From: Sycon ciliatum
Lineage: Eukaryota; Porifera; Calcarea; Leucosolenida; Sycettidae
Assembly (NCBI RefSeq): GCF_964019385.1
Contig: NC_088643.1
Span: 11,935,003-11,999,002, forward strand
DNA length: 64,000 nucleotides
Direction: 5' to 3'
Made by a program: the position numbers and the translations under genes. Below the pieces are notes generated by a model. It searched no databases. It saw only the letters and a program-made list of their open reading frames with translations, and was not told the origin of the DNA. The stretch's first letter is position 1. Every line of letters begins with the position of its first letter. Shown here in pieces: positions 1-63,513 of the stretch.

Positions 1-1943
1 CAAGTGTACATTGGGAATATCCTTGTTTAGCAGAGTGGAACAATACAGTTGAATGGATTTCAGGGCACATTCAGTGACACCTGTTGCAAGACCCATTCTC
101 AGTGTTGTTGTAACACGCTGGTACACCACCTGCAGACGGGATAGTGTTTCCTGGCTGGGCTCAACCTGTCCTTCTCTGCTGTCGATGACCAGAGACATGG
201 ATACCCTGCATGACTCCAGAGAAAGTTGCATCAAACGTAGCTGCAGCTGTGAATCCACTCCTCTCGGTTCTTGTTCAGATTTCTCTAGGAGCATTTGAGT
301 TCTGGAATCCAAACTCTCAAAAGTGACATCAGAATCTGCAATGCTTGGACTGAGAATACAATACAGGACCGAGCTGCAAATGCTGTCCGCTTGAACGGAT
401 AGTGGTGCTTTCTCCAATCTTTGAATCCTGGCCCCAAACCCTCCATCAAATGCTGTTCTCCCACACAAGGCAAGTAGGATACCTGACCACTTTGCTAATC
501 CAGAGAAAGGAAGCAAGTCATCACCAGACAAAACATCAACAACCGACAACGCCTTCTGTATATTCACTTTTTCCAGAAGCAATCGGTAACTCCAATACAT
601 TGCTTTGTCTGCACCACAACCTCTACAATCATCAACGCTTTTCACAAAGCCAAGGAAATGCTTGCACATTCGCCGTTGGTACACACGTCGCTTGTCTTCA
701 GAGCATTGGTAACGACCAAACTCGGCGATGAATGGTTGAAGTGAGTAGCGGTCCAGATACGGATTGTAATCCAGGAAACAAATCTTGATCAACGGATCAA
801 AACGTACAAGATGAACCATACTGGCCTTAGTGTCAGCCAAACCTACTATCACACGAGCGCAATCAGATGAGAATGAGGAGCGCAGTTGAGACAGAGCATG
901 GAATGATGCCTTGTCATCCTGTTGTAATGTGTTGTATGCTATTGTCAACAGCTTCAGGATTCGATCATTCGGTTTCAGACGATCATCATTAAACACATCG
1001 AGACCAAGATCTTGGAATATCGATAACAACATGGTTGGAGTTAACCGACCACCTTGTAGAAGACCAGCTGTAATGCGTACAGCAAGTGGAACATTTCCAC
1101 AATGATCCACTAACCTCTGTGCATCTTCAATGCTCACACTACCTTCAACACATAGACCATGGAGAAGACCAACAGCACAAACCTTTGTCAGACCATCAAG
1201 ACGGTGTTGTTGTAGTTTAAACTGGGCAGCGTGTAGGTCAAAGTAAACACGACTTGTCAGTAGGACATGGGCGTTGTGTTGCCGTTGCAGAAGTTGCTCC
1301 ACAACATCTTGCAGCTGGAAATCTTTATCAGCACCAGCATGGATAGCATCTTCAGCATTGTCAAGAATACATAACATGTGGTGTTTGCCACCATCACCAT
1401 CCATGCCATCAGTTGATTTCGTTGCCTTGCCAGTAGTTTCAGATGAAGCCGGGTTTGTTTCGAGTCGGTTTTGAATCATTGCCTGGACAGCGTCAACACC
1501 AGCTACACCGCGTAAGTCAAAGAACTCCACACGACAACCAGCATTGCGACATACATGTCCCACAGCAATGGCTACGGACGTTTTACCAAAACCAGCTGGT
1601 GCCACAAGACTCTGCACACGTGTAGATGATGACTTGGACTTTGTTGTGAGAATGTTGTGACTGATCTCTGTAACAATGTCATTCCTGCCAGTGAAGTGTC
1701 GGTCTTTGTCCGGTAGAGATGACTGGCTTGAAGTTGATGATCTTGTTAAATCCTTTGTTGTAGTCAAAGTTGTATTGCATGTCATACCCGTTCTCGTTAC
1801 ATTGGCGGTTGTTTCAGCTGATGTTGGTTGTTTGAAGATTGCTTCACATCTGTTGGACGTCCGTTGTTGGTTTGCCTGACCATCCCCCACCGGGTGCTGT
1901 GATGACTGCGTGTTCTGTTTGCCAACTGTTGTCATGGTGATAC
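1..1943 (-). CDS. Gene A exon 2 (partial): NB-ARC ATPase of a CARD/NB-ARC/MYND-like receptor
   Basis: Exon 2 of the first array copy, cut by the window edge so the C-terminal part and exon 3 are missing. I read its frame from position 1 to about 1500 without meeting a stop. The distance from the ITM start of the exon to the KDIPN motif near the left edge is the same as in copy B (1,914 nt from the ATG to the Asp codon), so there is no net indel. The acceptor TAG lies just above 1943 after a pyrimidine-rich tract. NB-ARC motifs are present: Walker A APAGFGKTS (about residues 233-241 of the spliced protein), a Walker B-like stretch LCILDNAED, LLTSR, GNVPLA and YSLQPFIAEF. The family is a STAND-type signalling ATPase like Apaf-1, CED-4 and plant NLRs. 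Its role as an immune or death sensor is inference. It pairs with the CARD exon at 6221-6575. Confidence 0.85.
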
Positions 1944-1984
1944 CTACCAAGGAAAGAGAATATATGAATAAACCTATTGTGCAC

Positions 1985-2430
1985 CCTAAAATCAAAATTT
2001 CACCAGTTGTAGTCGTCGGGGTGCTGAGTCGAATGGTCTTCGTCCGAGGAAGCTGAGTAGCTCCCTTCCTCCTTTTCCCAATCGAACTCGCACACTTCCA
2101 CCGAAACTGGGTGGCTGCGCCCTACTAAATGAGCTTTTGTATGCAACAGTCACTATTAAAAAGCGCCATTTCGTTCTTATAAAAGCACGGATGACCGCGA
2201 TTGGCCCATATGTTGTAGTCTTTTGGCCGCTTAGTCGACTGGTTTTGGTCCGAAAAGGCTGCGATGCAGCGTTCGGCCCTTATTCCCAATCGAACACGGT
2301 GAGTAAGCGGTTACGTGCTGATGCGTACACTTGTCACCTGGTCACCGGTGCACCGTGCCTGCAGGCTACACCTTTTACAGCGTTCCTGTCACTCGAGTTG
2401 AACCTTTGAGTTGAACATTGGTGTGAAAAT
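1985..2430. other. Copy-A-specific intron segment with an internal degenerate duplication
   Basis: Just upstream of the exon 2 acceptor, copy A stops matching B, C and D at about 1985 and resumes similarity at about 2431, so roughly 600 bp of the common intron is replaced. The replacement holds two diverged copies of one segment, near 2012-2090 and 2215-2300, both built around GTAGTC, GTCGA.TGGT and CCCAATCGAAC. No protein is recognised. It may be a transposon fragment or a rearrangement product. Confidence 0.4.
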
Positions 2431-2621
2431 CATGCTGGTACAGTAGTGGCTGGCCAGCTTCTGCCCAGTTCTGGGCACTTCTTCATGCCGCGCTGTCTTC
2501 TAAACTAATACTTACTTCCATTTTCCCAGCCCCAAATGTTCCACATGGGTGACACGTGCCAGCGTCACTGGTCGTGTATGTTTTGTATCGGATGGGGGAT
2601 AGATCACCGATATGTTTGTCT

Positions 2622-2742: not shown

Positions 2743-2842
2743 ATGTTTGTCTAAAATATTTATAGAAAGATGATAAATCAAAATTTCTCAGTACTGGTAG
2801 TGTTCTGTGGACTGAGCAATGACAGAGGGATACGTTTACGTT

Positions 2843-6220: not shown

Positions 6221-6575
6221 CGGAGGAAGAGCCACGTGTTGACTCACGGTCTGCTGACATTGGCTTCGTCGGACGGTCAGTTTTCCCACTGGCAGTTGCA
6301 CCGCGGCGCTTCGCCATGGTAATGGCGACATGTTCCGCTACATGAGGCTGGCTGTGCTGCACGAGCCTCAGGAACGCATCCACCTGTTCGTCCGTTTTCT
6401 TCAGCATCAGCCTCACCACATACTTTGTCAGATCAGACTTCACGCTTTCCTTGCTGGAGGCAGTATCATATTCATCAACGTCCAGCACATCATTCTCCAG
6501 CAAGAGTTCCAAGATCACGGATGCATCTAGATTGGAAAGTAAGAAGGCTATGTTATAGCGCACCCTGTCTGCCAT
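6221..6575 (-). CDS. Gene A exon 1: CARD-like death-fold domain
   Basis: First coding exon of gene A, 118 codons plus one base. The ATG at 6575 has A at -3 and G at +4, and an in-frame TGA two codons upstream fixes the start. Residues 1 to about 90 form a predicted all-helical CARD-like domain (LLSNLDASVILELLLEND, then the KSDLTKYVVRLMLKK and FLRLVQH helices). This is followed by a Lys/Arg- and Ser/Thr-rich tail that ends SSSG across the splice site. The donor GTAAGT is at 6220-6215 in phase 1, matching the phase-1 acceptor before exon 2. CARDs form homotypic contacts with caspases or adaptors, so this exon would supply the effector arm of the NB-ARC receptor. CARD rather than another death-fold type is judged by pattern only. 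Confidence 0.75.
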
Positions 6576-9302: not shown

Positions 9303-9793
9303 CACTGCTGACTCCATGCTAGCCCCATGTACTGCTGACTCCATGCTAGCCCCATGCACTGCTGACTCCATGCTAGCCCCATGTACTGCTGACTCCATGC
9401 TAGCCCCATGTACTGCTGACTCCATGCTAGCCCCATGTACTGCTGACTCCATGCTAGCCCCATGTGCTGCTGACTCCATGCTAGCCCCATGTACTGCTGA
9501 CTCCATGCTAGCCCCATGTACTGCTGACTCCATGCTAACCCCATGTACTGCTGACTCCATGCTAGCCCCATGTACTGCTGACTCCATGCTAGTCCCATGT
9601 ACTGCTGACTCCATGCTAGCCCCATGTACTGCTGACTCCATGCTAGTCCCATGTACTGCTGACTCCATGCTAGCCCCATGTACTGCTGACTCCATGCTAG
9701 CCCCATGTACTGCTGACTCCATGCTAGCCCCATGTACTGCTGACTCCATGCTAGCCCCATGTACTGCTGACTCCATGCTAGCCCCATGTGCCT
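9303..9793. repeat. 27-bp minisatellite, copy A (about 18 units)
   Basis: Near-perfect head-to-tail copies of a 27-bp unit containing TGCTGACTCCATGCTAGCCC. The period is a multiple of three and lacks stops in several frames, so it makes long artificial ORFs such as repeats of MLAPCTADS on the plus strand. It lies in the hydroxylase intron and has counterparts at 30752-31486 and 49707-50170. I regard it as non-coding. Confidence 0.9.
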
Positions 9794-13855: not shown

Positions 13856-14187
13856 ATCGGATTTTGGACACATTGCCATGTTCAGGCAGGATAAATCCTG
13901 TGGGCTACTGGAAAGCCGGCCACAATGGGAAACAATGTGGAAGGAGCTGCGGTCTGTGCTTGCTCAGGTCGAACCATGGCTAAATTTGTGATGCTTCATG
14001 CTTTGACGTGATAGCACACAGCGGCTGCAACGGGCATTTCTACATTTGTCACACAATACTGGAGTAAGATATGATGTGTATCTCAAGGATAGTAGCATGA
14101 ACTTGTATGTACAGGGTATGGCTGACACTGCTATGGCAATATACATTGCAGTATAAACATTTGTAGAGTAGAGTTTTCCAGGTTTAA

Positions 14188-16880
14188 AGGGAAACTGAAC
14201 GCCAAAAATAAGTATGGCTTATCCGAAGGAGAATTGGGCACTGATTCCGATGAGCTATGTCTCGAGCCGATCAGAGAAGAGGAACCGTGTCAAATTTCAT
14301 AAATAACACCTTCCATATTTGGAAATTGGGCTTGATGACGTGCGTACTGCTTAGCTGTCACCATGCTGTGCATGCTCAGCAGTGTAATTGAATGGAAGAA
14401 AACAATTACTTTGGTGTTTTGCAGCTCTATTTCGTTCCCTGACGGTACCCAAATCTAGATGTAGGAGTCTGTTGAGCAGGAGAGTGACACATGTCTTCCC
14501 GAAGGCTGTCCAGCCTGCAGTGGTGATGAAGAAGACACGATCAACACCCCAAGATCGATTCTAGCGAATTGGAAAACTCATGGTGAATTTGCTTCCACTC
14601 CAAGGCAATGTCGAGGTATGAAGGGTGCTTGTACTGCCTTCCAAAGTGAAGCGGAGATGAACATGGCTTTGCATAGCTGTTGTTCTACGCCAACTTACCT
14701 ACTCTTGCTGGTTTCGTAGTGGTATATTGCAAATTTCGTGGACGAACAACTCGAGTCTAGTGGCTAGTGAGCAACACTAACAGGTGAGATATTCAATTTG
14801 ACAAAAATTGTTCTTGTTTGAGAACTGACATTAACAGTCATTAGACTCAGTAGGTGTCTCTCTGCTGCTTCTTTCCCTTCATCGGTAGGGTTGTGCTTGA
14901 AGTCAAAATAAATAGAACATGTGGAACAAAAATCTGATCATGTAATTCGAATTTCAACTTCAAAGTATGCGTACATCAAATCACAAAATTTCAAGGTGGT
15001 GCTGTGCACTGAAAAAGACTGGGAGCTGGCAGCAATGGAAAGGGTAGAAACGAAACCAGTAAAGTAGAGTATTCATAAGGTAGAGGGAGTTGCAAACGGG
15101 AGACGAGAAGTGAGCATTTCAGTTCGAAGTAGTGTCAATAGACAGCATCGTGTTGCATATGTTGTGAATATTATGCGAATCTAATAATTGACAGAGGGTA
15201 GTGATTAAGCAGAGTATTGTTACAATACGAGGTACTTTGTGAGCAGATAGCAATCAATATCACGGCATGGTTTAGACAGGAACTCATAAATGTCAAGAAA
15301 TTGATAAGCCAAAATTATAATTATTATCCCCAGAGTAGTATAATTATTATGGTGTTCTCCTGTGTTTACATGCAGAGCCTTGACGTTGCTGGACGAGCGA
15401 CAATATAAATTACATAAACTTGTAGCTCATAATGTGGGATGACTGCCGTATTTCATTGCCAACGCAAACCCATCCTGTGTCAGTGCAGCCATCCAGCAAT
15501 TTGTACTCCCCGGACCAGATGCCGCTGCAGCTGAACACCATGCCGATGGAAAGCCAGGCGTTGATGGCGAAGCATTCTGGTCTGCACAGTACAAGGCAAA
15601 GAACAATTATGAATTATAACGCATTGTAATCCTTCCCACACGTCTTTGTAAAAACAAACAAGCAGTGCCATTATTACAACACTTGATCAAGCATATTGAT
15701 GGAGGTATTTTCCATTGTGCTGGCCCAGCATCTGCACCAGGAAGACCATGTACACTTACACGTATCTTGTGTGTTTCTGCGTGTGTGTGGGTGTGTGTGT
15801 ATCCGTCTGTGCACACGTGTGTGTGTGGGGGGGGGGGGGGGGGGGGTAGACGCATATGTGTATGGGTAGGAGTGTGTGTGTGGGGGGGGGGGGGGTACAC
15901 GCACATGTGTATGGATGTGCGCGCTGCATGCATGTATCTGTGGGATGGGGTGGGGGTGCACGCACGTGTGTACATGCGTGTGCGCAATATAGCATGTGTG
16001 TATTGTGTTCGTTGAACATAGGGAGTCCTCCTGATTCCATAAACGTTGTGATCATTGTGATTTCATGTGCTTTGAAGTTGAAATTCGCAATACATGTACT
16101 AATGCTTGATTAGATTTATGTTCCACATGTTTTATTTATTTTATTTTACTTCAAGCACTTGTACTATCAAGCACAACCCTACCAATGAAGGGAAAGAAGC
16201 AGCAGAGACACCTACTGAGTCAAATAACTGCCACCGTCAGTTCTCAAACAAAAACAATTTTTGTCAAATTGAAAAATCTCACCTGTTAGTGTTGCTCACT
16301 AGCCACTAGTGACTCGAGTTGTTCGTCCACGAAATTTGCAATACGCCACTACGAAACCAGCAAAAGTAGGTAAGTTGGCGTAGAGCAACAGCTATGCAAA
16401 GCCATGTTCATCTCCGCTTCACTTTGGAAGGCAGTACAAGCACCCTTCATACCTCGACATTGCCTTGGAGTGGAAGCAAATTCACCATGAGTTTTCCAAT
16501 TCGCTAGAATCGATCTTGGGGTGTTGATCGTGTCTTCTTCATCACCACTGCAGGCTGGACAGCCTTCGGGAAGACATGTGTCACTCTCCTGCTCAACAGA
16601 TTCCTACATCTAGATTTGGGTACCGTCAGGGAACGAAATAGAGCTGCAAAACACCAAAGTAATTGTTTTCTTCCATTCAATTACACTGCTGAGCATGCAC
16701 AGCATGGTGACAGCTAAGCAGTACGCACGTCATCAAGCCCAATTTCCAAATATGGAAGGTGTTATTTATGAAATTTGACACGGTTCCTCTTCTCTGATCG
16801 GCTCGAGACATAGCTCATCGGAATCAGTGCCCAATTCTCCTTCGGATAAGCCATACTTATTTTTGGCGTTCAGTTTCCCT
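14188..16880. mobile_element. 2.7-kb long-inverted-repeat (fold-back) element at TTAA, copy A only
   Basis: Two arms of roughly 740-760 bp (about 14188-14925 and 16121-16880) are inverted copies with ends AGGGAAACTGAACGCC, enclosing a loop of about 1.2 kb. The element is flanked by TTAA (14184-14187 and 16881-16884). Copies B (about 35103) and C (about 52970) have one TTAA in an otherwise identical context. A TTAA duplication is the piggyBac signature, so this looks like a non-autonomous, piggyBac-mobilised fold-back element. The loop carries G-runs and (GT)n and no recognisable transposase. Confidence 0.85.
15780..15975. repeat. (GT)n and G-run tract in the fold-back loop
   Basis: Alternating GT stretches and three G-runs, the longest about 18 bp, within the central loop of the TTAA element. 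Long ORFs through it are low-complexity artefacts. Confidence 0.8.
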
Positions 16881-16884
16881 TTAA

Positions 16885-18602: not shown

Positions 18603-19019
18603 TTACTGGAGTATGCGATGTCTGAGTGCTGCCAGCATAGCACAGTGTTGGTTGTGTTCACTTAGGTGTTCACCAGTTTGACGATGTTTGCCACACAGGT
18701 AAGCCATGCCACAACGAGGACATGCCTTGATGTTGTCCAGGTCATAGCAGACGAAACATGCTACTGCACATTTACACCATTCCAGTAGTGCAATGTGGTG
18801 ATCAATGCTCACTTGGCCTCTCTTGGATTGATGATGTAGGGCAGCAATGAGAGAGATGTACGGTAGAGAATAGTCTCCAGTTTGTGGTGGTAAGTACACA
18901 ATTCCAGACACTGACAGACCAGTTGCACACTTGCTTGGCAAGCAAGCACTGAGATCATTAACTAATGACTTCAACGCTGGGAAGAGTTTGGAACTAACAT
19001 CAGTCGCCAAGATCGTATT
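18603..19019 (-). CDS. Gene B exon 3: C-terminal MYND-like zinc finger
   Basis: Last coding exon, 138 codons plus TAA. The acceptor TAG lies directly above 19019 in phase 0, matching the phase-0 donor of exon 2 (325-bp intron). The C-terminal part carries C-x2-C-x8-C-x2-C-x5-C-x2-H and then H-x3-C (protein Cys 1050, 1053, 1062, 1065 and 1071, His 1074, His 1084, Cys 1088). This resembles the two-zinc MYND finger with one Cys replaced by His. MYND fingers bind short proline-rich peptides in partner proteins, so this could be a docking module. The stop TAA overlaps a donor-like CA/GTAAGT, so splicing to a further exon is possible but none is seen. The exon is 417 nt in B, C and D. Confidence 0.75.
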   Translation of the reverse strand, partial: NTILATDVSSKLFPALKSLVNDLSACLPSKCATGLSVSGIVYLPPQTGDYSLPYISLIAALHHQSKRGQVSIDHHIALLEWCKCAVACFVCYDLDNIKACPRCGMAYLCGKHRQTGEHLSEHNQHCAMLAALRHRILQ

Positions 19020-19344: not shown

Positions 19345-21875
19345 CTCAATAGCAAGCAGTTCTCTAGCTGTCAGTATACAAGACTGCACCACTTCCAGAT
19401 CAGGTACCTTGTTCTGACTACAGTTGTTAATCAGTGCTGTTGTGTGATCTGCTGGATTTGAGCCATGACACCATCTCCTGACATAGTCCATCACAATGTT
19501 GTAGGGATGCTGTGCTGGTAGAGTGAGACCCAATGGAGTTGTGTGTGCCCTTCCATTAACTACCAAGGATATGTACTGGATGTTGTACATAACACCCATG
19601 TACATGTACAGTAGTGTGGTTACTGTGTCATCATCCATGGAGTACAGGTACTGTTGTATCCGAAAAGTAGACACAGTAGTGTGGTCGTCATGGACATTGA
19701 CCGTGCGGCTGATAGCAGTTGGTACATGTTTCCACTTGCACAGTTGTATACCCAGTGTTGTAATCAATGATGGTGAAATAATCCACTCACTGCTACAGGA
19801 ACCTGACATGACCTTGCCCAGGATCACAGCAATGCACTGTAGCAGAAAACCGTACATTCCAGCACATGAAGGGACTGCACCATCCTGTGATAGGAAGTGT
19901 GATGACATCACTCTCTCAGCAAGGTCTTCTACCACCTGTACATTGGGTATATCCTTGTTTAGCAGAGTGGAACAATACAGTTGAATGAGTTTCAGGGCAC
20001 ATTCAGTGACACCTGTTGCAAGACCCATTCTCAGTGTTGTTGTAGCACGCTGGTACACCACCTGCAGACGGGATAGTGTTTCCTGGCTGGGCTCAACCTG
20101 TACTTCCCTGCAGTTGATGGCCAGAGACATGGATAGCCTGCATGACTCCAGAGAAAGTTGCATCAAAGGTAGCTGCAGCGGTGACCCCACTCCTGTCGGT
20201 TCTTGTTCAGATTTCTCCAGGAGCATTTGGGTTCTGGAATCCGAACTCTCAAAAGTGACATCAGAATCTGCAATGCTTTGACGGCAAATACAACACAGGA
20301 CCGAGGTGCAAATGCTGTCAGCTTGTACAGATAGCGGTGCTTTGTCCAATCTTTGTATCCTGTCCACAAACTCTCCAACAGACATTGCTCTCCCAAACAA
20401 GGAAAGTAGGATACCCGACCCCCCTGCTAATCCAGAGAAAGGAAGCAAGTCATCGCCAGACAAAACATCAACAACAGACAGCGCCTTCTGTATATTCACC
20501 CGTTCCTGAAGCAATTGGTAACTCCAATACGCTGCTTTGTCTGCACCACAACCTCTACAGTCATCAACTTCTTTCACAAAGCCAAGGAAATGCTTGCACA
20601 TTCGCTGTTGGTACATGTGTTGCTTGTCTTCTGGGCATTGGTAACGACCAAACTCGGCGATAAATGGTTGTAACGAGTAGCGATCCAAACACGAATTGTA
20701 ATCCAGGAAACAAATCTTGATCAACGGATCAAAACGTACAAGATGAACCACACTGGCATCAGTTGCAGGCAAACCCACCATCACACAAGCACAACCAGAT
20801 AAGAACGAGGAGCGGAGTTGAGACAGAGCATGGAATGATTCCTTGTCATCCTGTTGTAATGTGTTGTATGCTAATGTCAACAGCTTCAGGATTCGATGAT
20901 TCGGTTTCAGACCATCGTCGTTGAACACATCAAGACCAATCTTCTTGAACACCGCCAGCAACATGGTTGGAGTTAATCGACCACCTTGTAGAAGACCAGC
21001 TGTAATGCGTACAGCAAGTGGGACATTTCCACAATGATCCACTAACCTCTGTGCATCTTCAATGCTCACACTACCTTCAACACATAGACCATGGAGAAGG
21101 CCAACAGCACAAACCTTTGTCAGACCATCAAGACGGTGTTGTTGTAGTTTAAACTGGGCAGCGTGTAGGTCAAAGTAAACACGACTTGTCAGTAGGACAT
21201 GGGCGTTGTGTTGCCGTCGCAGAAGTTGCTCCACAACATCTTGCAGCTGGAAATCTTTATCAGCACCAGCATGGATAGCATCTTCGGCATTGTCCAGAAT
21301 ACATAACATGTCGTACTGGCTACCATCACCATTCATGCCATCAGCTGATTTCGTTGCCTTGCCAGTAGTTTCAGATGAAGCTGGGTTTGTTTCGAGTCGG
21401 TTTTGAATCATTGCCTGGACAGCGTCAACACCAGCTACACCGCGTAAGTCAAAGAACTCCACACGACAACCAGCACTGCGACATACATGTCCAACAGCAA
21501 TGGCTACGGACGTCTTACCAAAACCAGCTGGTGCCACAAGACTCTGCACACGTGTAGATGATGACTTGGACTTTGCTGTGAGAATGTTGTGACTGATCTC
21601 TGTAACAATGTCATTCCTGCCAGTGAAGTGTCGGTCTTTGTCCGGTAGAGATGACTGGCTTGAAGTTGTTGATCTTGTTGAATCCTGTGTTGTAGTCAAT
21701 GTTGTATTGGATGTTGCACCCGTTTTAGTTACATTGGCGGTTGTTTCAGCTGATGTTGTTTGTTTGAAGATTGGCTCACATCTATTGGACGTCCGTTGTT
21801 GGTCTGCCTGACAAGCTCCCACTGTGTGCTGCAATGGCTGCGTTTTCTGTTTGCCAACTGTTGTCATGGTGATAC
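19345..21875 (-). CDS. Gene B exon 2: linker, NB-ARC ATPase and helical region
   Basis: A 2,531-nt exon between acceptor TTGGTAG/GT and donor GAG/GTAAGC. Read from the spliced Gly-Ile-Thr-Met it adds 843 codons; with CARD and zinc-finger exons the protein is 1,100 residues. After a Ser/Thr-rich linker (about 150-200) comes FTGRNDIV, then Walker A APAGFGKTS (233-241), Walker B-like LCILDNAED (309-317), sensor LLTSR (346-350), GNVPLA (401-406, the GxP motif) and winged-helix YSLQPFIAEF (518-527). Residues 530-960 look helical. I see no WD40, LRR or TPR repeats. The frame stays open upstream of 21875, but that part is intron: the acceptor phase fits the CARD exon donor and the upstream segment diverges in copy A. 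Expected role: nucleotide-switched oligomerisation in innate immunity or cell death (inference). Confidence 0.88.
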
Positions 21876-26800: not shown

Positions 26801-26802
26801 AT

Positions 26803-27825: not shown

Positions 27826-28180
27826 CGGAGGACGAGCCACGTGTTGACTCATCATCTGCCGACGTTGGCTTCGTTGGACGGGCACTTTTCCCACTGGCAG
27901 TTGCATCGCGTCGCTTCGCCATGGTACTGGCAACATGTTCAGCTACATGAGGCTGGCTGTGCTGAATGAGCCTCAGGAACGAATCCACCTGTTCCTCCGT
28001 TTTCGTTAGCATCAACCTCACCACGTACTTCGTCAGATCAGACTTCACGTTCTCCTTGCTGGAGGCAGTTTTATATTCATCAACGTCCAGCACATCATTC
28101 TCCAGCAAGAGTTCCAAGATCAGGGATGCATCTAGATTGGAAAGTAAGAAGGCTATGTTATAGCGCACCCTGTCTGCCAT
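27826..28180 (-). CDS. Gene B exon 1: CARD-like death-fold domain
   Basis: The CARD-like exon of gene B, 355 nt as in A, with donor GTAAGT directly below 27826 in phase 1. MADRVRYN is the natural start. The upstream GTG codon that keeps the frame open for three more codons is not a likely animal start; the TGA found here in A, C and D has become GGA. The domain (about residues 1-90) is followed by a basic, Ser/Thr-rich tail. It differs from A at scattered residues (for example LILELL for VILELL and KTEEQVDSFL for KTDEQVDAFL). Confidence 0.75.
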
Positions 28181-36890: not shown

Positions 36891-36894
36891 ACAC

Positions 36895-38286: not shown

Positions 38287-38703
38287 TTACTGTAGTATGC
38301 GATGTCTGAGTGCTGCCAGCATAGCACAGTGTTGGTTGTGTTCACGTAGGTGTTCATCAGTTTGACGATGTTTGCCACACAGGTAAGCCATGCCACAGCG
38401 AGGACATGCTGTGATGTTGTCCAGGTCATAGCAGACAAAACATGCTGCTACACGTGGACACCATTCCAGTAGTGCAATGTGGTGATCAATGCTCACTTGG
38501 CTTCTCTTGGATTGATGATGTAGGGCAGCAAAGAGAGAGATGTACGGTGGAGGAATGTCCCAAGCTTGTACTGGTAAGTACACAATTCCAGACACCGAGA
38601 GACCAGTTGCACACTTGCTTGGCAGGCAAGCACTGAGATCCTTAACAAGTGACTTCAACACTGGGAAGAGTGTGGAACTAACATCAGTCGCGAAGAGAGT
38701 ATT
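38287..38703 (-). CDS. Gene C exon 3: MYND-like zinc finger
   Basis: The counterpart of 18603-19019, also 417 nt with TAA. The acceptor TAG is above 38703 and intron 2 is 330 bp. All finger Cys/His residues are kept (CFVCYDLDNITACPRC, then CGKH and HNQHC). The upstream helical part differs from B mainly around VQAWDIPPPYISLFAA. Confidence 0.75.
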   Translation of the reverse strand, partial: NTLFATDVSSTLFPVLKSLVKDLSACLPSKCATGLSVSGIVYLPVQAWDIPPPYISLFAALHHQSKRSQVSIDHHIALLEWCPRVAACFVCYDLDNITACPRCGMAYLCGKHRQTDEHLREHNQHCAMLAALRHRILQ

Positions 38704-39033: not shown

Positions 39034-41564
39034 CTGTGACAGGAGCATTGCTCTGGCCATCAGAATACAATACTGCATCACTTCCAGATTAGGTACCTTG
39101 TTCTGACTACAGTTGTTAATCAGTGCTGTTGTGTGATCTGCTGGATTTGAGCCATGACACCATCTCCTGACATAGTCCATCACAATGTTGTAGGGATGCT
39201 GTGCTGGTAGAGTGAGACCCTTTGGAGTTGTGTGTGCCCTTCCATTTACTACCAAGGGTATGTACAGGTTGGTGTACATACCATCCAAGTACATGTACAG
39301 TAGTGTGGTGACTGTGTCATTATCCATGGAGTATAGGTACTGTTGTACCTGGAAAGCTGCCACTGTGGTAGAGTCGTCATGGGCATTAATCGTGCGGCTG
39401 ATAGCAGTTGGTACATGTTTCCACTTGCACAGTGCTATACCCAGTGTTGTAAGCAATGATGGTGAAATAATCCACTCACTGCTACAGGAACTTGACATGA
39501 CCTTGCCCAGGATCACAACAATGCACTGTTGCAGAAAACCGTACATTACGGCACATGACCTGACTGCACCATCCTGTGATAGGAAGTATGATGACATCAC
39601 TCTCTCAGCAAGGTCTTCTACCACCTGTACATTGGGTATATCCTTGTTTAGCAGAGTGGAACAATACAGTTGAATGAGTTTCAGGGCACATTCAGTGACA
39701 CCTGTTGCAAGACCCATTCCCAGTGTTGTTGTAACACGCTGGTACACCACCTGAAGACGGGATAGCGTTTCCTGGCTCAGTTCAACCTGTCCTTCCCTGC
39801 AGTCGATGTCCAGAGACATGATTACCCTGCATGACTCCAGAGAAAGTTGCATCAAAGGTAGCTGCAACTGTGACTCCACTCCAGTCAGTTCTTGTTCAGA
39901 TTTCTCTAGGAGCATTTGGGTTCTGGAATCCAAACTCTCGAAAGTGACATCAGAATCTGCAATGCTTCGACGGAAAAAACAACACAGGACCGAGGTGCAA
40001 ATGCTGTCAGCTTGTACAGATAGCGGTGTTGTGTCCAATCTTTGTATCCTGTCCACAAACTCTCCAACAAACATTGCTCTCCCAAACAAGGCAAGTAGGA
40101 TACCCGACCCCCCTGCTAATTCAGAGAAAGGAAGCAAGTCATCGCCAGACAAAACATCAACAACAGACAACGCCACCTGTATGTTCACCCTTTCCTGAAG
40201 CAATTGGTAACTCCAATACACTGCTTTGTCTGCACCACAACCTCTATAGAAATCAACTTCTTTCACAAAGCCCAGGAAATGCTTGCACATTCGCTGTTGG
40301 TACATGTGTTGCTTGTCTTCTGGGCATTGGTAACGACCAAACTCGGCGATAAATGGTTGTAACGAGTAGCGATCCAAACACGAATTGTAATCCAGGAAAC
40401 AAATCTTGATCAACGGATCAAAGCGCAGAAGATGAACCACAGTAGCATCATCACCACCAAAATCCACCATTGCACAAGCACATTTAGATGAGAAGGAGGA
40501 ACGCAGTTGAGATAGAGCATGGAATGATTCCTTGTCAGTCTGACGTAATGTGTTGTATGCTACTTTCAACAGCTGCAGAATTCGATGATTCGGTTTCAGA
40601 CCATCATCGTTAAACACATCAAGACCAATCTTCTTGAACAACGCCAGCAACATTGCGGGAGTTAGGCGACCACCTTGTAGAAGACCAGCTGTAATGCGTA
40701 CAGCAAGTGGAACATTTCCACAATGATCCACTAACCTCTGTGTATCTTCAATGCTCACACTACCTTCAACACATAGACCATGGAGAAGATCAACAGCACA
40801 AACCTTTGTCAGACCATCAAGACGGTGTTGTTGTAGTTTAAACTGGGCAGCGTGTAGGTCAAAGCAAACACGACTTGTCAGTAGGACATGAACGTTGTGT
40901 TGTAGTCGAAGAAGTCGTTCCACAACATCTTGTAGCTGGAAATCTTTATCAGCACCAGCTTGGATAGCATCCTCAGCATTATCCAGAATAACTAACATTT
41001 GTTGTTTGCGACCATCATCATCCATGCCATCAGTTGATTTCGTTGTCTTGCAAGTAGTTTCAGATGAAACAGGATTTGTTTCGAGTCGGCTTTGAATTAT
41101 TGCCTGGGCAGCGTCAACACCAGCTACACCGCGTAAGTCAAAGAACTCCACACGACAACCAGCATTGCGACATATATGTCCCACAGCAATGGCTACGGAC
41201 GTCTTCCCAAAACCAGCTGGTGCCACAAGACTCTGCACCCGTGTAGATGATGATTTGGACTTTGTTGTGAGAATGTTGTGACTGATCTCTGTAACAATGT
41301 CATCCCTGCCAGTGAAGTGTCGGTCTTTGTCCGGTAGAGATGACTGGCTTGAAGTTGATGATCTTGTTGAATCCTGTGTTGTAGTCAATGTTGTATTGCA
41401 TGTCGTACCCGTTCTCGTTACATTGGCGGTTGTTTCAGCTGATGTTGGTTGTTTGAAGATTGGTTCACATTTGTTGGACGTCCGTTGTTGGTCTGCCTGA
41501 CCACCCCCCACTGTGTGCTGCAATGGCTGTGTTTTCTGTTTGCCAACTGTTGCCATGGTGATAC
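39034..41564 (-). CDS. Gene C exon 2: NB-ARC ATPase and helical region
   Basis: 2,531 nt like B and D, donor CAG/GTAAGC, acceptor GGTAG/GT. Walker A APAGFGKTS, Walker B-like LVILDNAED (B has LCILDNAED), LLTSR and GNVPLA are all intact. The first segment (TCNTTLTTT, RSSTSSQ) is like copy A, while the segment after GxP (RILQLLKVAYNTLRQ, SKCAC, VVHLLR) is like copy D, so the exon is mosaic. It ends LLSQ rather than LAIE. Confidence 0.87.
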
Positions 41565-46614: not shown

Positions 46615-46975
46615 CGGAGGACGAGCCAAGTGTGGACTCATCATCTGCCGACATTGATATTGGCTTCGTCGGATGGTCAGTTTTCCCACTGGCAGTTGCA
46701 TCGCGTCGCTTTGCCATGGTACTGGCGACATGTTCCGCTACATGAGGCTGGCTGTGCTGAATGAGCCTCAGGAACGTGTCGACCTGTTCCTCTGTTTTCT
46801 TCAGCATCAGCCTCACCACGTACTTTGTCAGATCAGACTTCACGTTTTCCTTGCTAGAGGCAGTATCATATTCATCAACGTCCAGCATATCATTCTCCAG
46901 CAAGAGTTCCAAGATCACGGATGCATCAAGATTGGAAAGTAGGAAGGCTATGTTATAGCGCACCCTGTCTGCCAT
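46615..46975 (-). CDS. Gene C exon 1: CARD-like death-fold domain
   Basis: 361 nt, 6 nt longer than A and B because of two extra residues in the tail (KPISMSADDES); copy D shares this. The ATG at 46975 has an in-frame TGA two codons upstream. The donor GTAAGT is in phase 1 directly below 46615. CARD core as in A, with LLENDMLDVDE for LLENDVLDVDE. Confidence 0.75.
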
Positions 46976-48552: not shown

Positions 48553-49236
48553 CATGCTGCCCATGCACTGTATAGCTAACGGTAGCTGTACTGTGCATGG
48601 ACAGCATGCACTGCCACTGCTACCAGTAGCTGTACTGTGCATGGGTAGCATGCACTGCCACTGCTACCGGTAGCTGTACTGTGCATGGGCAGCATGCACT
48701 GCCACTGCTACCAGTAGCTGTACTGTGCATGGGTAGCATGCACTGCCACTGCTACCAGTAGCTGTACTGTGCATGGGCAGCATGCACTGCCACTGCTACC
48801 GGTAGCTGTACTGTGCATGGGTAGCATGCACTGCCACTGCTACCGGTAGCTGTACTGTGCATGGGCAGCATGCACTGCCACTGCTACCGGTAGCTGTACT
48901 GTGCATGGGTAGCATGCACTGCCACTGCTACCGGTAGCTGTACTGTGCATGGGTAGCATGCACTGCCACTGCTACCAGTAGCTGTACTGTGCATGGGCAG
49001 CATGCACTGCCACTGCTACCGGTAGCTGTACTGTGCATGGGTAGCATGCACTGCCACTGCTACCAGTAGCTGTACTGTGCATGGGTAGCATGCACTGCCA
49101 CTGCTACCGGTAGCTGTACTGTGCATGGGCAGCATGCACTGCCACTGCTACCGGTAGCTGTACTGTGCATGGACAGCATGCACTGCCACTGCTACCAGTA
49201 GCTGTACTGTGCATGGGTAGCATGCACTGCCACTGA
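48553..49236. repeat. 44-bp minisatellite, copy C (about 16 units)
   Basis: The same unit as at 29822, expanded to about 16 copies with two or three alternating sequence variants. Confidence 0.9.
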
Positions 49237-49706: not shown

Positions 49707-50170
49707 CATCTCACTGCTGACTCCATGCTAGCCCCATGTACTGCTGACTCCATGCTAGCCCCATGTACTGCTGACTCCATGCTAGCCCCATGTACTGCTG
49801 ACTCCATGCTAGCCCCATGTACTGCTGACTCCATGCTAGCCCCATGTACTGCTGACTCCATGCTAGCCCCATGTACTGCTGACTCCATGCTAGCCCCATG
49901 TGCTGCTGACTCCATGCTAGTCCCATGTACTGCTGACTCCATGCTAGCCCCATGTACTGCTGACTCCATGCTAGTCCCATGTACTGCTGACTCCATGCTA
50001 GCCCCATGTACTGCTGACTCCATGCTAGCGCCATGTACTGCTGACTCCATGCTAGCCCCATGTACTGCTGACTCCATGCTAGCCCCATGTACTGCTGACT
50101 CCATGCTAGCCCCATGTACTGCTGACTCCATGCTAGCCCCATGTACTGCTGACTCCATGCTAGCCCCATG
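49707..50170. repeat. 27-bp minisatellite, copy C (about 17 units)
   Basis: The same unit as at 9303. Here its plus-strand open frame runs on through the intron into the hydroxylase last exon. Confidence 0.9.
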
Positions 50171-50251
50171 TGCCTGGCGGGGAGTTTGTGTACCTCGTAT
50201 AATTATAAAAACTGACATTATTTTTTGTTTATGTTGGCTGCTGCTATGCAG

Positions 50252-55030: not shown

Positions 55031-55560
55031 TCACAGACACAGCAGTGGTTCTCTTGTACTGGTGGTAAATTACTGACATACGAGTACAGCACACAGCAGT
55101 GGTTCTGTTGCACTGTTAAATTACTGACATACGAGTACAGCACACAGCAGTGGTTCTGTTGTACTGTTAAATTACTGACATACGAGTACAGCACACAGCA
55201 GTGGTTCTGTTGTACTGTTAAATTACTGACATACGAGTACAGCACACAGCAGTGGTTCTGTTGTACTGTTAAATTACTCACATATGAGTACAGCACACAG
55301 CAGTGGTTCTGTTGTACTGTTAAATTACTGACATACGAGTACAGCACACAGCAGTGGTTCTGTTGTACTGTTAAATTACTGACATACGAGTACAGTACAC
55401 AGCAGTGGTTCTGTTGTACTGTTAAATTACTGACATACGAGTACAGTACACAGCAGTGGTTCTGTTGTACTGTTAAATTACTGACATACGAGTACAGCAC
55501 ACAGCAGTGGTTCTGTTGTACTGGTAAATTACTGACATACGAGTACAGCACACAGCACAC
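55031..55560. repeat. 51-bp minisatellite directly after gene D (10 units)
   Basis: Ten units of 51 bp containing TACTGACATACGAGTACAGC and CAGTGGTTCTGTTG. On the minus strand it encodes a 17-residue repeat (SNLTVQQNHCCVLYSYV). The frame is the same as that of gene D exon 3, separated by its TAA. Treated as a 3'-flank repeat. Confidence 0.85.
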
Positions 55561-55602: not shown

Positions 55603-56019
55603 TTACTGTAGTATGCGACGTCTGAGTGCTGCCAGCATAGCACAGTGTTGGTTGTGTTCACTTAGGTGTTCATCAGTTTGACGATGTTTACCACACAGGT
55701 AAGCCATGTCACAACGAGGACATGCCTTGATGTTGTCCAGGTCATAGCAGACAAAACATGCTGCTACACGTGGACACCATTCCAGTAGTGCAATGTGGTG
55801 ATCAATGCTCACTTGGCCTCTCTTGGATTGACGATGCAGGGCAGCAATGAGACAGTAGTATAGTAGCGTATCGTCTCCAGCATGTGGTGGTAAGTACACA
55901 ATTCCAGACACTGAGAGACCAGTTGCACAATTGCTCGGCAGGTAAGCACTGAGATCATTAACCAATGACTTCAACGCTGGGAAGAGTTTGGACATTTCTA
56001 CAAGTGCAAAGATCGTATT
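55603..56019 (-). CDS. Gene D exon 3: MYND-like zinc finger
   Basis: 417 nt with TAA and acceptor TAG above 56019. The finger is intact (CFVCYDLDNIKACPRC, CGKH, HNQHC). The N-terminal part differs from B (FALVEMSKL for LATDVSSKL). TAAGTTA at the end again overlaps a donor-like CA/GTAAGT. Confidence 0.75.
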   Translation of the reverse strand, partial: NTIFALVEMSKLFPALKSLVNDLSAYLPSNCATGLSVSGIVYLPPHAGDDTLLYYCLIAALHRQSKRGQVSIDHHIALLEWCPRVAACFVCYDLDNIKACPRCDMAYLCGKHRQTDEHLSEHNQHCAMLAALRRRILQ

Positions 56020-56344: not shown

Positions 56345-58875
56345 CTCAATGCTCAGCAGTGTTCTAGCTGTCTGTATACAAGACTGCATCACTTCCACAT
56401 CTGGTACCTTGTTCTGGCTACTGTTGTTAATCAGTGCTGTTGTGTGATCTGCTGGATTTGAGCCATGACACCATCTCCTGACATAGTCCATCACAATGTT
56501 GTAGGGATGCTGTGCTGGTAGAGTGAGACCCGTTGGAGTTGTGTATGCCCTTCCATTTACTACCAAGGATATGTACTCGGTGTTGTACATATCACCCGAG
56601 TACAGGTACAGTAGTGTGGCTACTGTGTCATTATCCATGGAGTGCAGGTATCGTTGTAACCGAAGAGTAGACACAGTAGTGTGGTCGTCATGGGTATTGA
56701 CCGTGCGGCTGATAGCAGTTGGTACATGTTTCCACTTGCACAGTGGTATACCCAGTGTTGTAATCAATGATGGTGAAATAATCCACTCACTGCTACAGGA
56801 ACTTGACATGACCTTGCCCAGGATCACAGCAATGCATTGTAGCAGAAAACCGAACATTGCAGTACATGAAAGGACTGCACCATCCTGTGATAGGAAGCGT
56901 GATGACATCACTCTCTTAGCAAGGTCTTCTACCACCTGTACATTGGGAATATCCTTGCTTAGCAGAGTGGAACAATACAGTTGAATGAGTTTCAGGGCAC
57001 ATTCAGTCACACCTGTTGCAAGACCCATTCTCAGTGTTGTTGTAACACGCTGGTACACCACCTGAAGACGGGATAGTGTTTCCTGGCTGAGCTCAACCTG
57101 TCCTTCCCTGCAGTCGATGTCCAGAGACATGGATAGCCTGCATGACTCCAGAGAAAGTTGCATCAAAGGTAGCTGCAGCGGTGACCCCACTCCTGTCGGT
57201 TCTTGTTCAGATTTCTCCAGGAGCATTTGGGTTCTGGAATCCGAACTCTCAAAAGTGACATCAGAATCTGCAATGCTTTGACGGCAAATACAACACAGGA
57301 CCGAGGTGCAAATGCTGTCAGCTTGTACAGATAGCGGTGCTTTGTCCAATCTTTGTATCCTGCCCACAAACTCTCCAACAAACATTGCTCTCCCAAACAA
57401 GGCAAATAGGATACCCGTTGACTTTGTTAATCCAGAGAAAGGAAGCAAGTCATAGCCAGACAAAACATCAACAACAGACAACGCCATCTGTATATTCACC
57501 AGTTCCTGAAGCAGTTGGTAACTCCAATACAATGCTTTGTCTGCACCACAACCTCTACAGTCATCAACTTCCTTCACAAAGCCAAGGAAATGCTTGCACA
57601 TTCGCCGTTGGTACATGTGTTGCTTGTCTTCTGGGCATTGGTAACGACCAAACTCGGCGATAAATGGTTGTAACGAGTAGCGATCCAAATACGAATTGTA
57701 ATCCAGGAAACAAATCTTGATCAACGGATCTAAACGTAGAAGATGAACCACATCAACATCATCACCTACAAAATCCACCATCACGCAAGCGCACTTAGAT
57801 GAGAACGAGGAGTGCAGTTGAGATAGAGCATGGAATGATTCTTTGTCATCCTGGCGTAGTGTGTTGTATGCTACTTTCAACAGCTGCAGAATTCGATGAT
57901 TCGGTTTCAGACCATCATCGTTGAACACATCAAGACCAATCTTCTTGAACAACGATAGCAGCCTGGTGGGAGTTAATCGACCACCTTGCAGAAGACCAGC
58001 TGTAATGCGTACAGCAAGTGGAACATTTCCACAATGATCCACTAACCTCTGTGCATCTTCAATGCTCACACTACCTTCAACACATAGACCATGGAGAAGA
58101 TCAACAGCACAAACCTTTGTCAGACCATCAAGACGGTGTTGTTGTAGTTTAAACTGGGCAGCGTGTAGGTCAAAGTAAACACGACTTGTCAGTAGGACAT
58201 GGACATGGAGTTGTAGTTGAAGTATTTGCTCTACAACATCTTGTAGTTGGAGATCTTTATCAGCACCAGCCTGGATAGCATCCTCGGCATTGTCTAGGAT
58301 ACATAACATGTGATGTTTGCCACCATCATCATCCCTGCCATCAGTTGATTTCGTTGTCTTGCCAGTAGTTTCAGATGAAGCTGGGTTTGTTTCGAGTCGG
58401 TTTTGAATCATTGCCTGGACAGCGTTAACACCAGCTACACCGCGTAAGTCAAAGAACTCCACACGACAACCAGCATTGCGACATACATGTCCCACAGCAA
58501 TGGCTACGGACGTCTTACCAAAACCAGCTGGTGCCACAAGACTCTGCACTTGTGTAGGTGATGACTTGGACTTTGTTGTGAGAATGTTGTGACTGATCTC
58601 TGTAACAATGTCATTCCTGCCAGTGAAATGTCGGTCTTTGTTCGGTAGAGATGACTGGCTTGAAGTTGTTGATCTTGTTGAATCCTGTGTTGTAGTCAAT
58701 GTTGTATTGGATGTTGCACCCGTTTTAGTTACATTGGCGGTTGTTTCAGCTGATGCTGGTTGTTTGAAGATTGGCTCACATCTGTTGGACGTCCGTTGCT
58801 GGTCTGCCTGACAAGCTCCCACTGTGTGCTGCAATGGCTGCGTTTTCTGTTTGCCAACTGTTGTCATGGTGATAC
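56345..58875 (-). CDS. Gene D exon 2: NB-ARC ATPase and helical region
   Basis: 2,531 nt. Acceptor GCTAG/GT (B has GGTAG/GT), donor GAG/GTAAGC. All NB-ARC motifs are intact: APAGFGKTS, LCILDNAED, LLTSR, GNVPLA, YSLQPFIAEF. The N-terminal linker is nearly the same as in B (KTGATSNTTLTTTQDSTRST), the middle is like C (RILQLLKVAYNTLRQ), and the CCICRQSIADSDV region is like B again. Unlike B and C, the frame stays open through most of intron 2 (to 56105), so intron retention would add a tail; I take splicing to exon 3 as the main form. Confidence 0.88.
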
Positions 58876-60871: not shown

Positions 60872-60883
60872 TTCTTGATCTTT

Positions 60884-63106
60884 GTCAGCGGTCTACCTGC
60901 CGTGAATTCTGCGGCATGAAGAGTGACGGCCTTTTGATTTGGGATCTTCATGTCTTTCCGTCTTGTGCACACAATAACTGGTATTGTTGGTGGTGATACC
61001 GGTATAATTTTCAGTATTGTTCTTGACAGGCATTTTTGCAATCTCCCTGGGCCAAGGAGCTCACAGGAATGGTTTTTGTAAGGCTCGGTTTCTCATTTCT
61101 CACTTCGGTGTTGTGCGCTTGTGGGTGTATTCTGGTGACATCCTGTCAGGACAGGGCTATACTAATTTCTCCAAAGGACTCCATGCGTATCGGAGGTTCT
61201 AAGCCTATCAGAGAAATGGATGTCACCATGGCTACCCTATCTGGGGGGGGGGGGGAGATAGATCACCGATATGTGTGTCTATTGCCTATAGAAAGATCAT
61301 AAACAGAACTCTAAAACGCTATCGGAGTTCAAAACCATATGTAGAAGTTTTGCTTATCAACGGAGAAAGTAAGTTAAAAAATCATAGTAATGGTAGTGTT
61401 CTCAGACTGTTCTGTGCACAGAGCAATGACAGAGGGACAAGTTCACGTTAGAAAATAACGCCCCACTTCCAGCTATTACAAACAAGAATCCTGGGCTTAT
61501 CTCCTACCAGTGGTTTTGCTAGAACTCTACGGCTAGTAACAAAGTCATGTTCTACTGATAGAGGATTTACCACAATGGTGTTGATGACCATCTTGACTTA
61601 GTGAGATCTTTTGGAAGTCATTGAATGATGGCTTGTAGCCTTGGGCTTAGTATTTCCATGGAAATGTTCAAATTTAACTCTGCCGCCAAAGTACCTTGCA
61701 ATCTTCTCTCTCCAAGAGCTACTGTACTAAGTCTGAGTTGAACTTTTTGTCTGGAAAGTGGTATTCTCTGGAATGCTGCACTATAGCTGCTGCCGGCGTA
61801 GCAATGAGAACAACTGACTCCGACTAAAGCAATGTTTGCGATTTCGAAGTAAACTGCAGAACTTGAGAAAAACAAAACTCATCAGCAGCTACGATGCAAA
61901 GCAATAATAGAAACTTCACTCGAAAAATCATATTCGAAAGTTTCGCATGAAACGCTATTTTTTGTGAACCGGGAAGGTTTCAGAAACGACCTGCGAAAGT
62001 TTGAAACATAAATTCCAAGGCAATTCAAAGGCAATGCCGCTAGGGGTTACCGGGTGTTAGCGGCCGTCGTGAGTTCCCTTCAGGAACGGACACGATAAAT
62101 TACTTTTTACTTTACCTAAACCAAAGTTAAAGCTATGATTGAAGTTTGGAAAATGAACAACTGAGCAGTCGCAGAAAGTAATTCAAGTATGAATGGGGAC
62201 GGTGTGGTTTCCGTCCAGCACTGCACTATTTGGTGCATAGATGCGCGTGCGAACTGAAGTGCATGGCGGTACAGGATGTGCACATGCATGCCGTTTACGT
62301 CCAACATCGGGAAATCGCTGTGGGCTGGCTTCTGTGATAATTTTCCTTCTACTGCGATACAGTGCGAGGCTAAATGTTCTAGAATCCTCTTGTTTTAGAC
62401 TAATTCGAGGCTGCTGAACACTAAAATTGGGTGTACCTCCCGGGGCCGAGTATGAATCTGGTTGAGATCAGTACTTCGCTATGCCTCTGTGCAAACAACG
62501 GCTCCACCTTTTTTGTTCAAGCATGGCATGTGTGGCATCAATGGAAAGGCGATGACCTCAGCTACCTAAAATAGCATCGGCAAGGGAGTACTGGCCACGG
62601 GATCAGATATAAGCGGGGTCAAAGTCAGGCCAAAGAGCTTTCACGCGGGCCCCATTGTAAATGTACACGCAAGTTGTGACTGCAGTTTTCACCTGACCCA
62701 GGCTGGAACTGAACTCCCTAGCAATAATCTAGTGACCCATGACAGTGCTTCACGCCAGTGGCACCTGCATTTCTTGTAGATCTACAGGATCATCATGTAG
62801 ATCTGGTTATAACCTCAGGACTGTCCATCTAACTGAACCCACCCAGGGTCAGCTCTCAATACGATTGATGAGAATGCATGAACTAATTGATCTCTGTAAG
62901 CACATCTCACTGCTAACAAGTAAGTACAGTGTTGCTCAATGAAATCCAGTCGTGTCACTCAAGTTTGTACCTTGCACCATTTTGCAGCCCAATGCTTGCA
63001 GGTCTAGGGCTGCGCAACGCCGAGCGCGTACTTGAGTGATGCTGTGACTGGATTTCATTGAGCAGAACTGTACATGTCATGTAGTTACACGAATGTTCAA
63101 CGAGCC
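60884..63106. other. Intron 1 of gene D, conserved non-coding part
   Basis: Homologous to the same intron segments in the other copies: G-run near 61243, GCCGCTAGGG block near 62036, and a single 39-bp unit near 63028. A stretch of about 85 bp present in B and C (about 44585-44670) is deleted near 62292. No gene. Confidence 0.4.
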
Positions 63107-63152
63107 CCCCCCCCCAATCTTCCTACGCCACGTAATCAATGTGAAAACTTAC

Positions 63153-63513
63153 CGGAGGACGAGCCAAGTGTGGACTCATCATCTGCCGACATTGATATTG
63201 GCTTCGTCGGATGGTCAGTTTTTCCACTGGCAGTTGGATCGCGTCGCTTTGCCATGGTACTGGCGACATGTTCCGCTACATGAGGCTGGCTGTGCTGCAT
63301 GAGCCTCAGGAACGTGTCGACCTGTTCCTCTGTTTTCTTCAGCATCAGCCTCACCACGTACTTTGTCAGTTCAGACTTCACGTTTTCCTTGCTAGAGGCA
63401 GTATCATATTCATCAACGTCCAGCACATCATTCTCCAGCAAGAGTTCCAAGATCACGGATGCATCTAGATTGGAAAGTAAGAAGGCTATGTTATAGCGCA
63501 CCCTGTCTGCCAT
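63153..63513 (-). CDS. Gene D exon 1: CARD-like death-fold domain
   Basis: 361 nt with the two extra tail residues shared with C. ATG at 63513 with in-frame TGA two codons upstream, donor GTAAGT in phase 1 below 63153. The CARD core is intact (ASVILELLLENDVLDVDEYD). It differs from C at few positions (KSELTKYV, LRLMQHS). Confidence 0.75.

Follow-up and report, generated by a model that had tools for sequence, protein, structure and literature searches.

A 1.6-Mb cluster of putative CARD- and STAND-type receptor genes ending in a MYND-like finger in the calcareous sponge Sycon ciliatum

Animals without antibodies must recognise many threats by means of inherited genes, and an array of closely similar genes in a sponge raises the question of whether it could serve such recognition. 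The array considered here lies in a stretch of 64,000 nucleotides of the Sycon ciliatum genome (assembly GCF_964019385.1; contig NC_088643.1, hereafter C1; positions 11,935,003-11,999,002), which we call the window; the genome searched comprised 538 Mb in 313 contigs. From N- to C-terminus, the predicted proteins carry a CARD and a STAND/NB-ARC-like ATPase, then a long variable region, and close with a MYND-like finger. Our answer is that these genes probably belong to a germline-encoded repertoire of intracellular STAND (Apaf-1/NLR-like) receptors signalling through the CARD. As judged from their sequences, the CARD, the ATPase and the finger are conserved, change is faster between roughly residue 443 of exon 2 and the finger, and segments have been exchanged among copies.

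The minus strand of the window holds three complete three-exon genes (c2, c3 and c4) and a fourth, c1, which leaves the window inside exon 2. Exon 1, bearing the CARD, lies at 6221..6575 in c1 (ATG, CARD, linker and donor GTAAGT; Pfam CARD E 1.1e-6), 27826..28180 in c2 (2.6e-6), 46615..46975 in c3 (6e-6) and 63153..63513 in c4 (2e-6). Exon 2, with the ATPase and the variable region, occupies 19345..21875 in c2, 39034..41564 in c3 and 56345..58875 in c4, on the evidence of the gene models and NCBIfam matches; the edge-cut exon 2 of c1 (1..1943; ATPase and first part of the variable region) stays open up to the window edge. Exon 3, with a further variable part, the finger and the stop, is found at 18603..19019 in c2 (Pfam zf-MYND positions 1-39 of 39, E 0.047, below cut-off), 38287..38703 in c3 (1-39 of 39, E 0.078, below cut-off) and 55603..56019 in c4 (MYND-like by motif). 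The first exon measures 118-120 codons, with the ATG context GAACAATGG and a last G followed by GTAAG in all four copies; the second is 2,531 bases long in all three complete copies, is preceded by ...TAG in four of four and directly followed by GTAAGCTGG in three of three; and the third has 138 codons plus stop, directly after CTCTAG in three of three. The splice phases are 1 at the first junction and 0 at the second, no in-frame stop precedes the last codon in c2-c4, and the predicted proteins have 1,100-1,102 amino acids.

A sequence-only reading had described four minus-strand genes with the same three exons, intact frames and matching splice phases, repeating every 17-20 kb. The frames and phases are borne out in c2-c4, and so is the three-exon structure, but not in c1, whose exon 3 falls outside the window; the repeat length holds only roughly, since the start-to-start distances between CARDs are 21.6, 18.8 and 16.5 kb and the first and last fall outside the proposed range. 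The coding exons of c2-c4 are 92-93% identical, and the same chromosome region contains another 50 exon-2 copies, so the array in the window is not a product of chance. In 26 of 28 third exons the TAA stop overlaps a donor-like GTAAGT. A possible fourth exon was considered, and among the printed candidates no downstream open stretch common to c2, c3 and c4 was found by eye; the exon-3 stop is therefore preferred, though not proven, as the true end of the gene.

With regard to the encoded domains, the CARD passes the Pfam cut-off in all four window copies (E 1.1e-6 to 6e-6), as the sequence-only reading had supposed, and a five-helix structural model from the four copies, itself matched to known CARDs only weakly, has block-mean predicted local distance difference test (pLDDT) values of 67-84 across its helical first 90 residues. 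Botulinum neurotoxin chains, returned by a PDB sequence search with the CARD profile or sequence (best E 0.051), were dismissed as chance helical matches. Residues ~61-310 of exon 2 match the NCBIfam profiles FxSxx_TPR (4e-11 to 4e-10) and AfsR (2e-10 to 4e-8) in all three copies scanned, at scores far short of the whole-family cut-offs (at best 42 of 300 bits), and against PDB the segment finds the solved AfsR (E 1.6e-6). These bacterial NB-ARC–TPR proteins are the nearest matches found for the ATPase segment, and the likeness is limited to it. Patterns for the STAND-class motifs GR (30 of 31 exon-2 copies), Walker A (30), Walker B (31), the sensor arginine (30) and GxP (31) follow one another in that order; the core that bears them in c4, residues 77-320, is calculated from residue numbers to lie at 57914..58645 on the minus strand. 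In 27 of 29 copies, L011 and L020 being the exceptions, the finger reads C-x2-C-x8-C-x2-C-x5-C and ends in H-x3-C. Its sixth ligand site, by comparison with the MYND zinc-ligand consensus, reads CGKHR, and a MYND pattern requiring Cys at the sixth ligand gave no match on the minus strand of the window.

The CARD plus NB-ARC layout of Apaf-1, CED-4 and NLRs had also been pointed out for these genes, and a CARD followed by an NB-ARC-like ATPase is borne out. No WD40 family appears among the matches up to E 1 for exons 2 and 3, NACHT gave no match to E 1 in exon 2, and Pfam scans of the window and of further cluster copies contain no convincing leucine-rich repeats, the LRR_8 stretches present being single, marginal and below cut-off (E 0.012 in one of four window copies; 0.085 and 0.053 in two further copies). 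PADLOC returned no match for three copies, and exon 2, run against viral and prokaryote contigs, gave 22 and 150 pattern stretches, respectively, and no tblastn relatives.

How far does the family extend beyond the window? The exon-2 search of the genome gave at least 55 match rows (54 of 77 candidates scored), one of which is the second piece of one copy and another a copy at 72.41 Mb, leaving 53 distinct copies in the cluster, c2-c4 included. With c1, which was absent from the rows listed, the cluster holds at least 54 copies, 39 on the minus and 15 on the plus strand, spread over 11.261-12.859 Mb of C1 (1.6 Mb) at a median spacing of 26.5 kb. This upholds the proposal of an expanding CARD/NB-ARC-type family, at about 13 times the count of the sequence-only reading. 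Counting as partners, on the strand of the copy, any CARD match up to 16 kb upstream and any MYND match up to 1.5 kb downstream, 47 of the 54 copies have both, 49 the CARD and 51 the MYND. CARD-exon matches number 67 in the genome, with 61 of the 66 placed falling in the cluster, and MYND-exon matches 60, of which 57 (pieces of broken exons included) are in the cluster; the Pfam CARD profile itself is found at 82 places, 57 of them inside the cluster by our own count, and in none of 14 control genomes. Uncollapsed haplotypes as the source of the whole array are ruled out by the presence of both orientations and by exon-2 identities of at most 97% in all but 9 of 465 pairs (31 copies); three pairs exceed 99% and could partly be a haplotype artefact.

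The thirty cluster copies read in detail are the 30 best matches to c4, so that its close relatives are favoured. All 30 have the exon-2 donor GTAAG, 25 keep the exon-2 acceptor AG and five (L028-L032) have lost it, and in 28 an AG is followed by a third exon of 110 codons or more, shortened to 119 codons in L020. Thirty of the 67 CARD loci were fetched; L061 was dropped for want of a matching start, and the 29 readable ones all show phase 1 at the donor. Could the exons, then, belong to separate transcripts, giving a CARD-only protein beside ATPase or MYND proteins? The unequal totals in the cluster (61 matches for the CARD, 54 for the ATPase and 57, pieces included, for MYND), which leave some exons unpaired, would agree with this, as would the lost acceptors and an early ATG that exon 2 has of its own. 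The uniform donor phase, the 47 ordered triads and a divergent relative outside the cluster (L063, described below) that retains the same three parts speak for joined exons, and we regard separate transcripts as extremely improbable.

Another thought is that repeat-driven duplication amplified the unit almost neutrally and that the extra copies do little. Such an origin would suit the minisatellites and mobile-element remnants within the units, the exons left without partners, and the damaged copies: three exon-2 copies have one TAG in the match (in two of them, L014 and L018, at codon 833, near the exon end, with the frame also shifted relative to the donor), and one stop-free copy matches residues 1-658 only. 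Against this, the match is free of stop codons in 50 of the 53 exon-2 copies of the cluster. In a simple simulation of 4,000 trials, limited to substitutions and ignoring insertions and deletions, exon 2 stayed open in 0.8% of cases after 114 random substitutions and in 12.7% after 51. The ratios of nonsynonymous to synonymous substitution (dN/dS) in the copies read, 0.20 for the CARD and 0.33 for the ATPase, also stand against neutrality, and we consider it very unlikely that most of the array is idle.

These ratios, obtained by pairwise counting over 31 exon-2, 28 exon-3 and 29 exon-1 copies, differ along the protein. The CARD (0.10-0.36, 29 copies) and the ATPase, exon-2 residues 77-320 (0.25-0.45, 31 copies), are followed by residues 321-442 at 0.40 (0.27-0.58), and residues 443-844 reach 0.99, which differs from the ATPase (permutation p 0.0002). 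Within the latter, residues 703-802 stand at 1.60 (1.03-2.65), and the top 60-codon window of exon 2 has a dN/dS of 2.0, equalled in 9 of 500 codon-order shuffles. In exon 3, residues 1-86 give 0.84 (0.55-1.31), with residues 37-62 at 1.57 (0.88-3.07), and the MYND part gives 0.50 (0.32-0.84); the four window copies alone yield a similar picture. Among the regions tested, intervals lie above 1, narrowly, only for residues 703-802 and the overlapping 723-792, both picked after looking, and counting by pairs on mosaic sequences gives values that depend on one another; positive selection at residues 703-802 is thus likely, short of proof. This fastest-evolving segment is calculated to lie at 56468..56767 in c4 (from residue numbers), and its equivalents at 19468..19767 in c2 and 39157..39456 in c3, all on the minus strand.

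The distribution of change also bears on the idea that these proteins are Apaf-1-like apoptosome scaffolds answering internal damage, with copy number setting dose rather than recognition. Apaf-1 carries WD40 repeats besides its CARD–NB-ARC part. The order of CARD and NB-ARC-like ATPase recalls such a scaffold, and multiplicity has precedents, since the available text of PMC6321704 describes several Apaf-1 paralogues in placozoans and that of PMC2246300 infers several for the cnidarian-bilaterian ancestor. Nevertheless, exons 2 and 3 lack a WD40 match, the genome has a separate locus on C5 (L002) with CARD and NB-ARC both over cut-off, and the fastest-changing part seems to sit where a fixed internal signal should need conservation. 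A scaffold role for the whole array therefore appears quite unlikely to us.

Besides substitution, exchange among copies has left its mark. In exon 2 of c1-c4, 53 two-against-two sites fall into blocks of three conflicting groupings (17 switches, p 0.0002), and trees of the three thirds of exon 2 (30 copies) disagree in 9 of 15, 10 of 15 and 10 of 17 supported splits. Seven of the eight close pairs examined (not L021/L023) have at least one flank clearly less alike than the exon, with flanks aligned end to end and some flank values depressed by insertions and by N letters in the L009 flank. This mosaicism fits gene conversion or unequal exchange. Purifying selection on the CARD and the ATPase, a fast later region and exon mosaicism together form the pattern expected of recognition receptors.

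Recognition of what, however, is a further matter, as the array might instead separate self from non-self within the species, with death following contact between unrelated individuals. Some fungal NLR-type genes act in self/non-self recognition. Fast-changing segments and mosaic copies fit this allorecognition as well as they fit pathogen sensing, and sponges and cnidarians are among the animals for which the available part of PMC8195603 reports allo-incompatibility. A single assembly stands behind the locus, and allorecognition as the function of the array strikes us as unlikely. A bolder version, to which we give only a small chance, would make the cluster genes a new receptor class, CARD–NB-ARC–variable–MYND: a recombining, highly polymorphic germline repertoire, possibly a histocompatibility locus, in which the MYND-like finger forms a second conserved output or docking module.

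The contrast between core and variable region is seen again outside the cluster. At 13.7387-13.7458 Mb of C1, 0.9 Mb from the cluster, L063 carries the three exons, for the CARD, the ATPase and MYND, in the order found in the cluster; its CARD (9.1e-7) and AAA (3.5e-5) pass the Pfam cut-offs and its third exon has no Pfam match. Compared with c4, it is 44% identical in the CARD and 57% over 116 positions of the third exon, and in 60-residue blocks of exon 2 the identity is 33-52% in the ATPase, 3-25% from residue 421 on and 13% in the linker block. Because L063 shows the same contrast, these comparisons mark the separation of a changing region from a more fixed core as old. Furthermore, L063 keeps CAKHC where the cluster finger has CGKHR, so that it seems to be the cluster finger that changed its sixth ligand, the direction being inferred. 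L063 is the minus-strand member, and the one read, of two divergent relatives that apparently stand head to head at 13.738-13.754 Mb (minus strand: CARD match at 13.7454, MYND match at 13.7388; plus strand: CARD match at 13.7464, MYND match at 13.7539).

How, then, might a receptor of this kind work? Ligand sensing, nucleotide exchange, oligomerisation and the CARD-driven recruitment of caspases or adaptors are known from Apaf-1, CED-4 and NLRs. By analogy, the variable stretch would sense either a guarded host protein or a ligand related to microbes, viruses or stress; the ATPase would then open out of its ADP-bound resting state; the opened receptor would oligomerise; and the clustered CARDs would recruit a CARD-bearing caspase or adaptor, leading to cell death or an immune response. 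Such partners are plausibly available: the genome gives 14 caspase-domain match rows, counted exon by exon, some with a Pfam CARD within ~5 kb (C1 88.885/88.891; C4 39.037/39.040 and 39.050/39.052 Mb). The MYND-like finger may dock a fixed partner or regulator, a role suggested by its being conserved and terminal and otherwise a guess. Duplication and gene conversion would renew the set of sensing surfaces. The locus is in this respect a compact test case, with dozens of copies in one region, conserved signalling parts and one stretch that differs most among copies, and a sensing surface can therefore be proposed from evolution alone.

Several observations weigh against the reading of the array as a receptor repertoire. 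Expression, ligand binding, oligomerisation and signalling of the cluster proteins are predictions only. The excess of dN/dS over 1 is modest and comes from pairwise counting on mosaic sequences, and the linkers are loose as well (1.17, 0.51-4.48, in exon 1; 0.49, 0.30-0.78, in exon 2), so that looseness is not confined to the supposed sensor. Best among the PDB matches of the CARD model is a chain of the CENP-N complex (E 0.11), ahead of the CARD8 CARD filament (E 0.41); none of the 62 matches reaches E 0.001, and the CARDs of Apaf-1 and NOD1 stand further down the list. The structure prediction for exon 2 from four copies is of no use, with a mean pLDDT of 31 and no residue at 50 or above. 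The NB-ARC named by the sequence-only reading was recovered in part: Pfam reports NB-ARC (PF00931) in none of the six cluster copies scanned (c1-c4 and two more), and the genome-wide search gave two matches, both outside the cluster (of 14 control genomes, six gave matches, three over cut-off), whereas the AfsR and FxSxx_TPR profiles and the solved AfsR do match. Even in L063, NB-ARC stays below cut-off (E 0.0046, 16.7 of 23.5 bits). Since no window copy reaches Pfam NB-ARC and the cluster is missing from the genome-wide matches to that model, the exon-2 segment is better called a STAND/NB-ARC-like ATPase; because of the profile matches to AfsR-type NB-ARC proteins, we keep it in the broader STAND/AP-ATPase (NB-ARC) class. 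The MYND assignment fared similarly, with zf-MYND (PF01753) matched from end to end in two of three third exons but below cut-off (c2 14.2 and c3 13.5 of 22.7 bits); c4 gave no match. To these points belong the five lost acceptors mentioned above.

Set beside known systems, the cluster genes resemble Apaf-1 and CED-4 in having an N-terminal CARD followed by an NB-ARC-like switch, in a genome that also holds caspase domains with CARDs nearby; they differ in lacking a WD40 match, in carrying a C-terminal MYND-like finger, in their dozens of copies and in not reaching Pfam NB-ARC, which L002 does. That locus (C5 33.96 Mb; CARD 9.1e-13 and NB-ARC 1e-7, ~1.1 kb apart), separate from the cluster family, is a candidate for the genome's Apaf-1-type gene. 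At C2 35.93 Mb, a 1,183-codon open stretch (L001) has a roughly central NB-ARC over cut-off (8.2e-8), and Pfam finds no match to E 0.5 in its long N-terminal part. From NACHT–LRR receptors the cluster genes differ in having neither a NACHT match nor convincing C-terminal leucine-rich repeats.

Closer parallels come from rapidly evolving clustered receptor families, whose conserved core, fast-evolving region and segment exchange are all present in the cluster. The zebrafish NLR-B30.2 genes, as the available part of PMC4852459 describes them, are likewise clustered and show gene conversion, together with positive selection in the recognition module, but combine NACHT, LRR and B30.2 in nearly 400 genes, compared with CARD, NB-ARC-like ATPase and MYND in at least 54 here. 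The coral Acropora digitifera shows a lineage-specific expansion of NACHT/NB-ARC genes with CARD among the N-terminal domains and tandem duplication as the proposed cause; there the genes stand in pairs or triplets, unlike the single 1.6-Mb cluster of the sponge, and MYND is not among the coral domains in the accessible text (PMC4083563). The placozoan Trichoplax sp. H2 offers 39 NB-ARC genes, which are partly clustered, bear CARD or Death-like N-termini and lack LRR; it differs in its C-terminal repeats of WD40 or TPR, and the accessible main text does not mention MYND (PMC6321704).

The CARD-to-MYND fusion was not met in the open-licence literature searched and may be known elsewhere, for example as an unnamed database protein. 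None of the open-licence papers found on MYND and NB-ARC, a soybean paper among the literature met, deals by its title with an animal receptor; none was found that names NB-ARC, MYND and CARD together; the MYND passages of a paper met under NOD-like receptors concern a fungal SET-MYND protein; and MYND does not occur in the main texts of PMC12909245, PMC8260672, PMC6321704 and PMC8195603. Such a fusion would give Apaf-1/NLR-like receptors an added conserved C-terminal module.

Additionally, NACHT gave at least 102 matches over cut-off in the genome (102 of 452 candidates scored), none of them listed in the cluster; 11 of 14 control genomes also gave matches, three over cut-off. Dense groups, many in long open frames, lie at 36.5-38.5 Mb of C5, ~21.3-22.9 Mb of C12 and 0.2-2.8 Mb of C14, and two receptor classes may thus have expanded in parallel in the same genome.

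Finally, the window contains mobile-element remnants and repeats between and within its genes, and no match in Rfam and tRNA scans. A 2.7-kb insertion at 14184-16884, bounded by TTAA, has 574-nucleotide inverted ends that are 99% alike and start TTAAAGGG; the next unit preserves its empty site as a single TTAA (35105-35108), and the insertion looks like a piggyBac-type non-autonomous element. Intron 1 of c2 contains a fragment matching a Tc3-type transposase helix-turn-helix (~23064-23234, minus; PF01498, E 8e-6, below cut-off), and an open frame at 36832-37602 on the plus strand resembles, by eye, the C-terminal end of a reverse transcriptase of a non-long-terminal-repeat (non-LTR) retrotransposon. 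Minisatellites occur with units of 27 bp (9304-9789, 30758-31486 and 49713-50171), 44 bp (29825-30271 and 48532-49235), 39 bp (26798-27233) and 51 bp (55033-55557). The 27-bp array is present in three of the gene units, in 18, 27 and 17 copies, and produces long spurious open frames.

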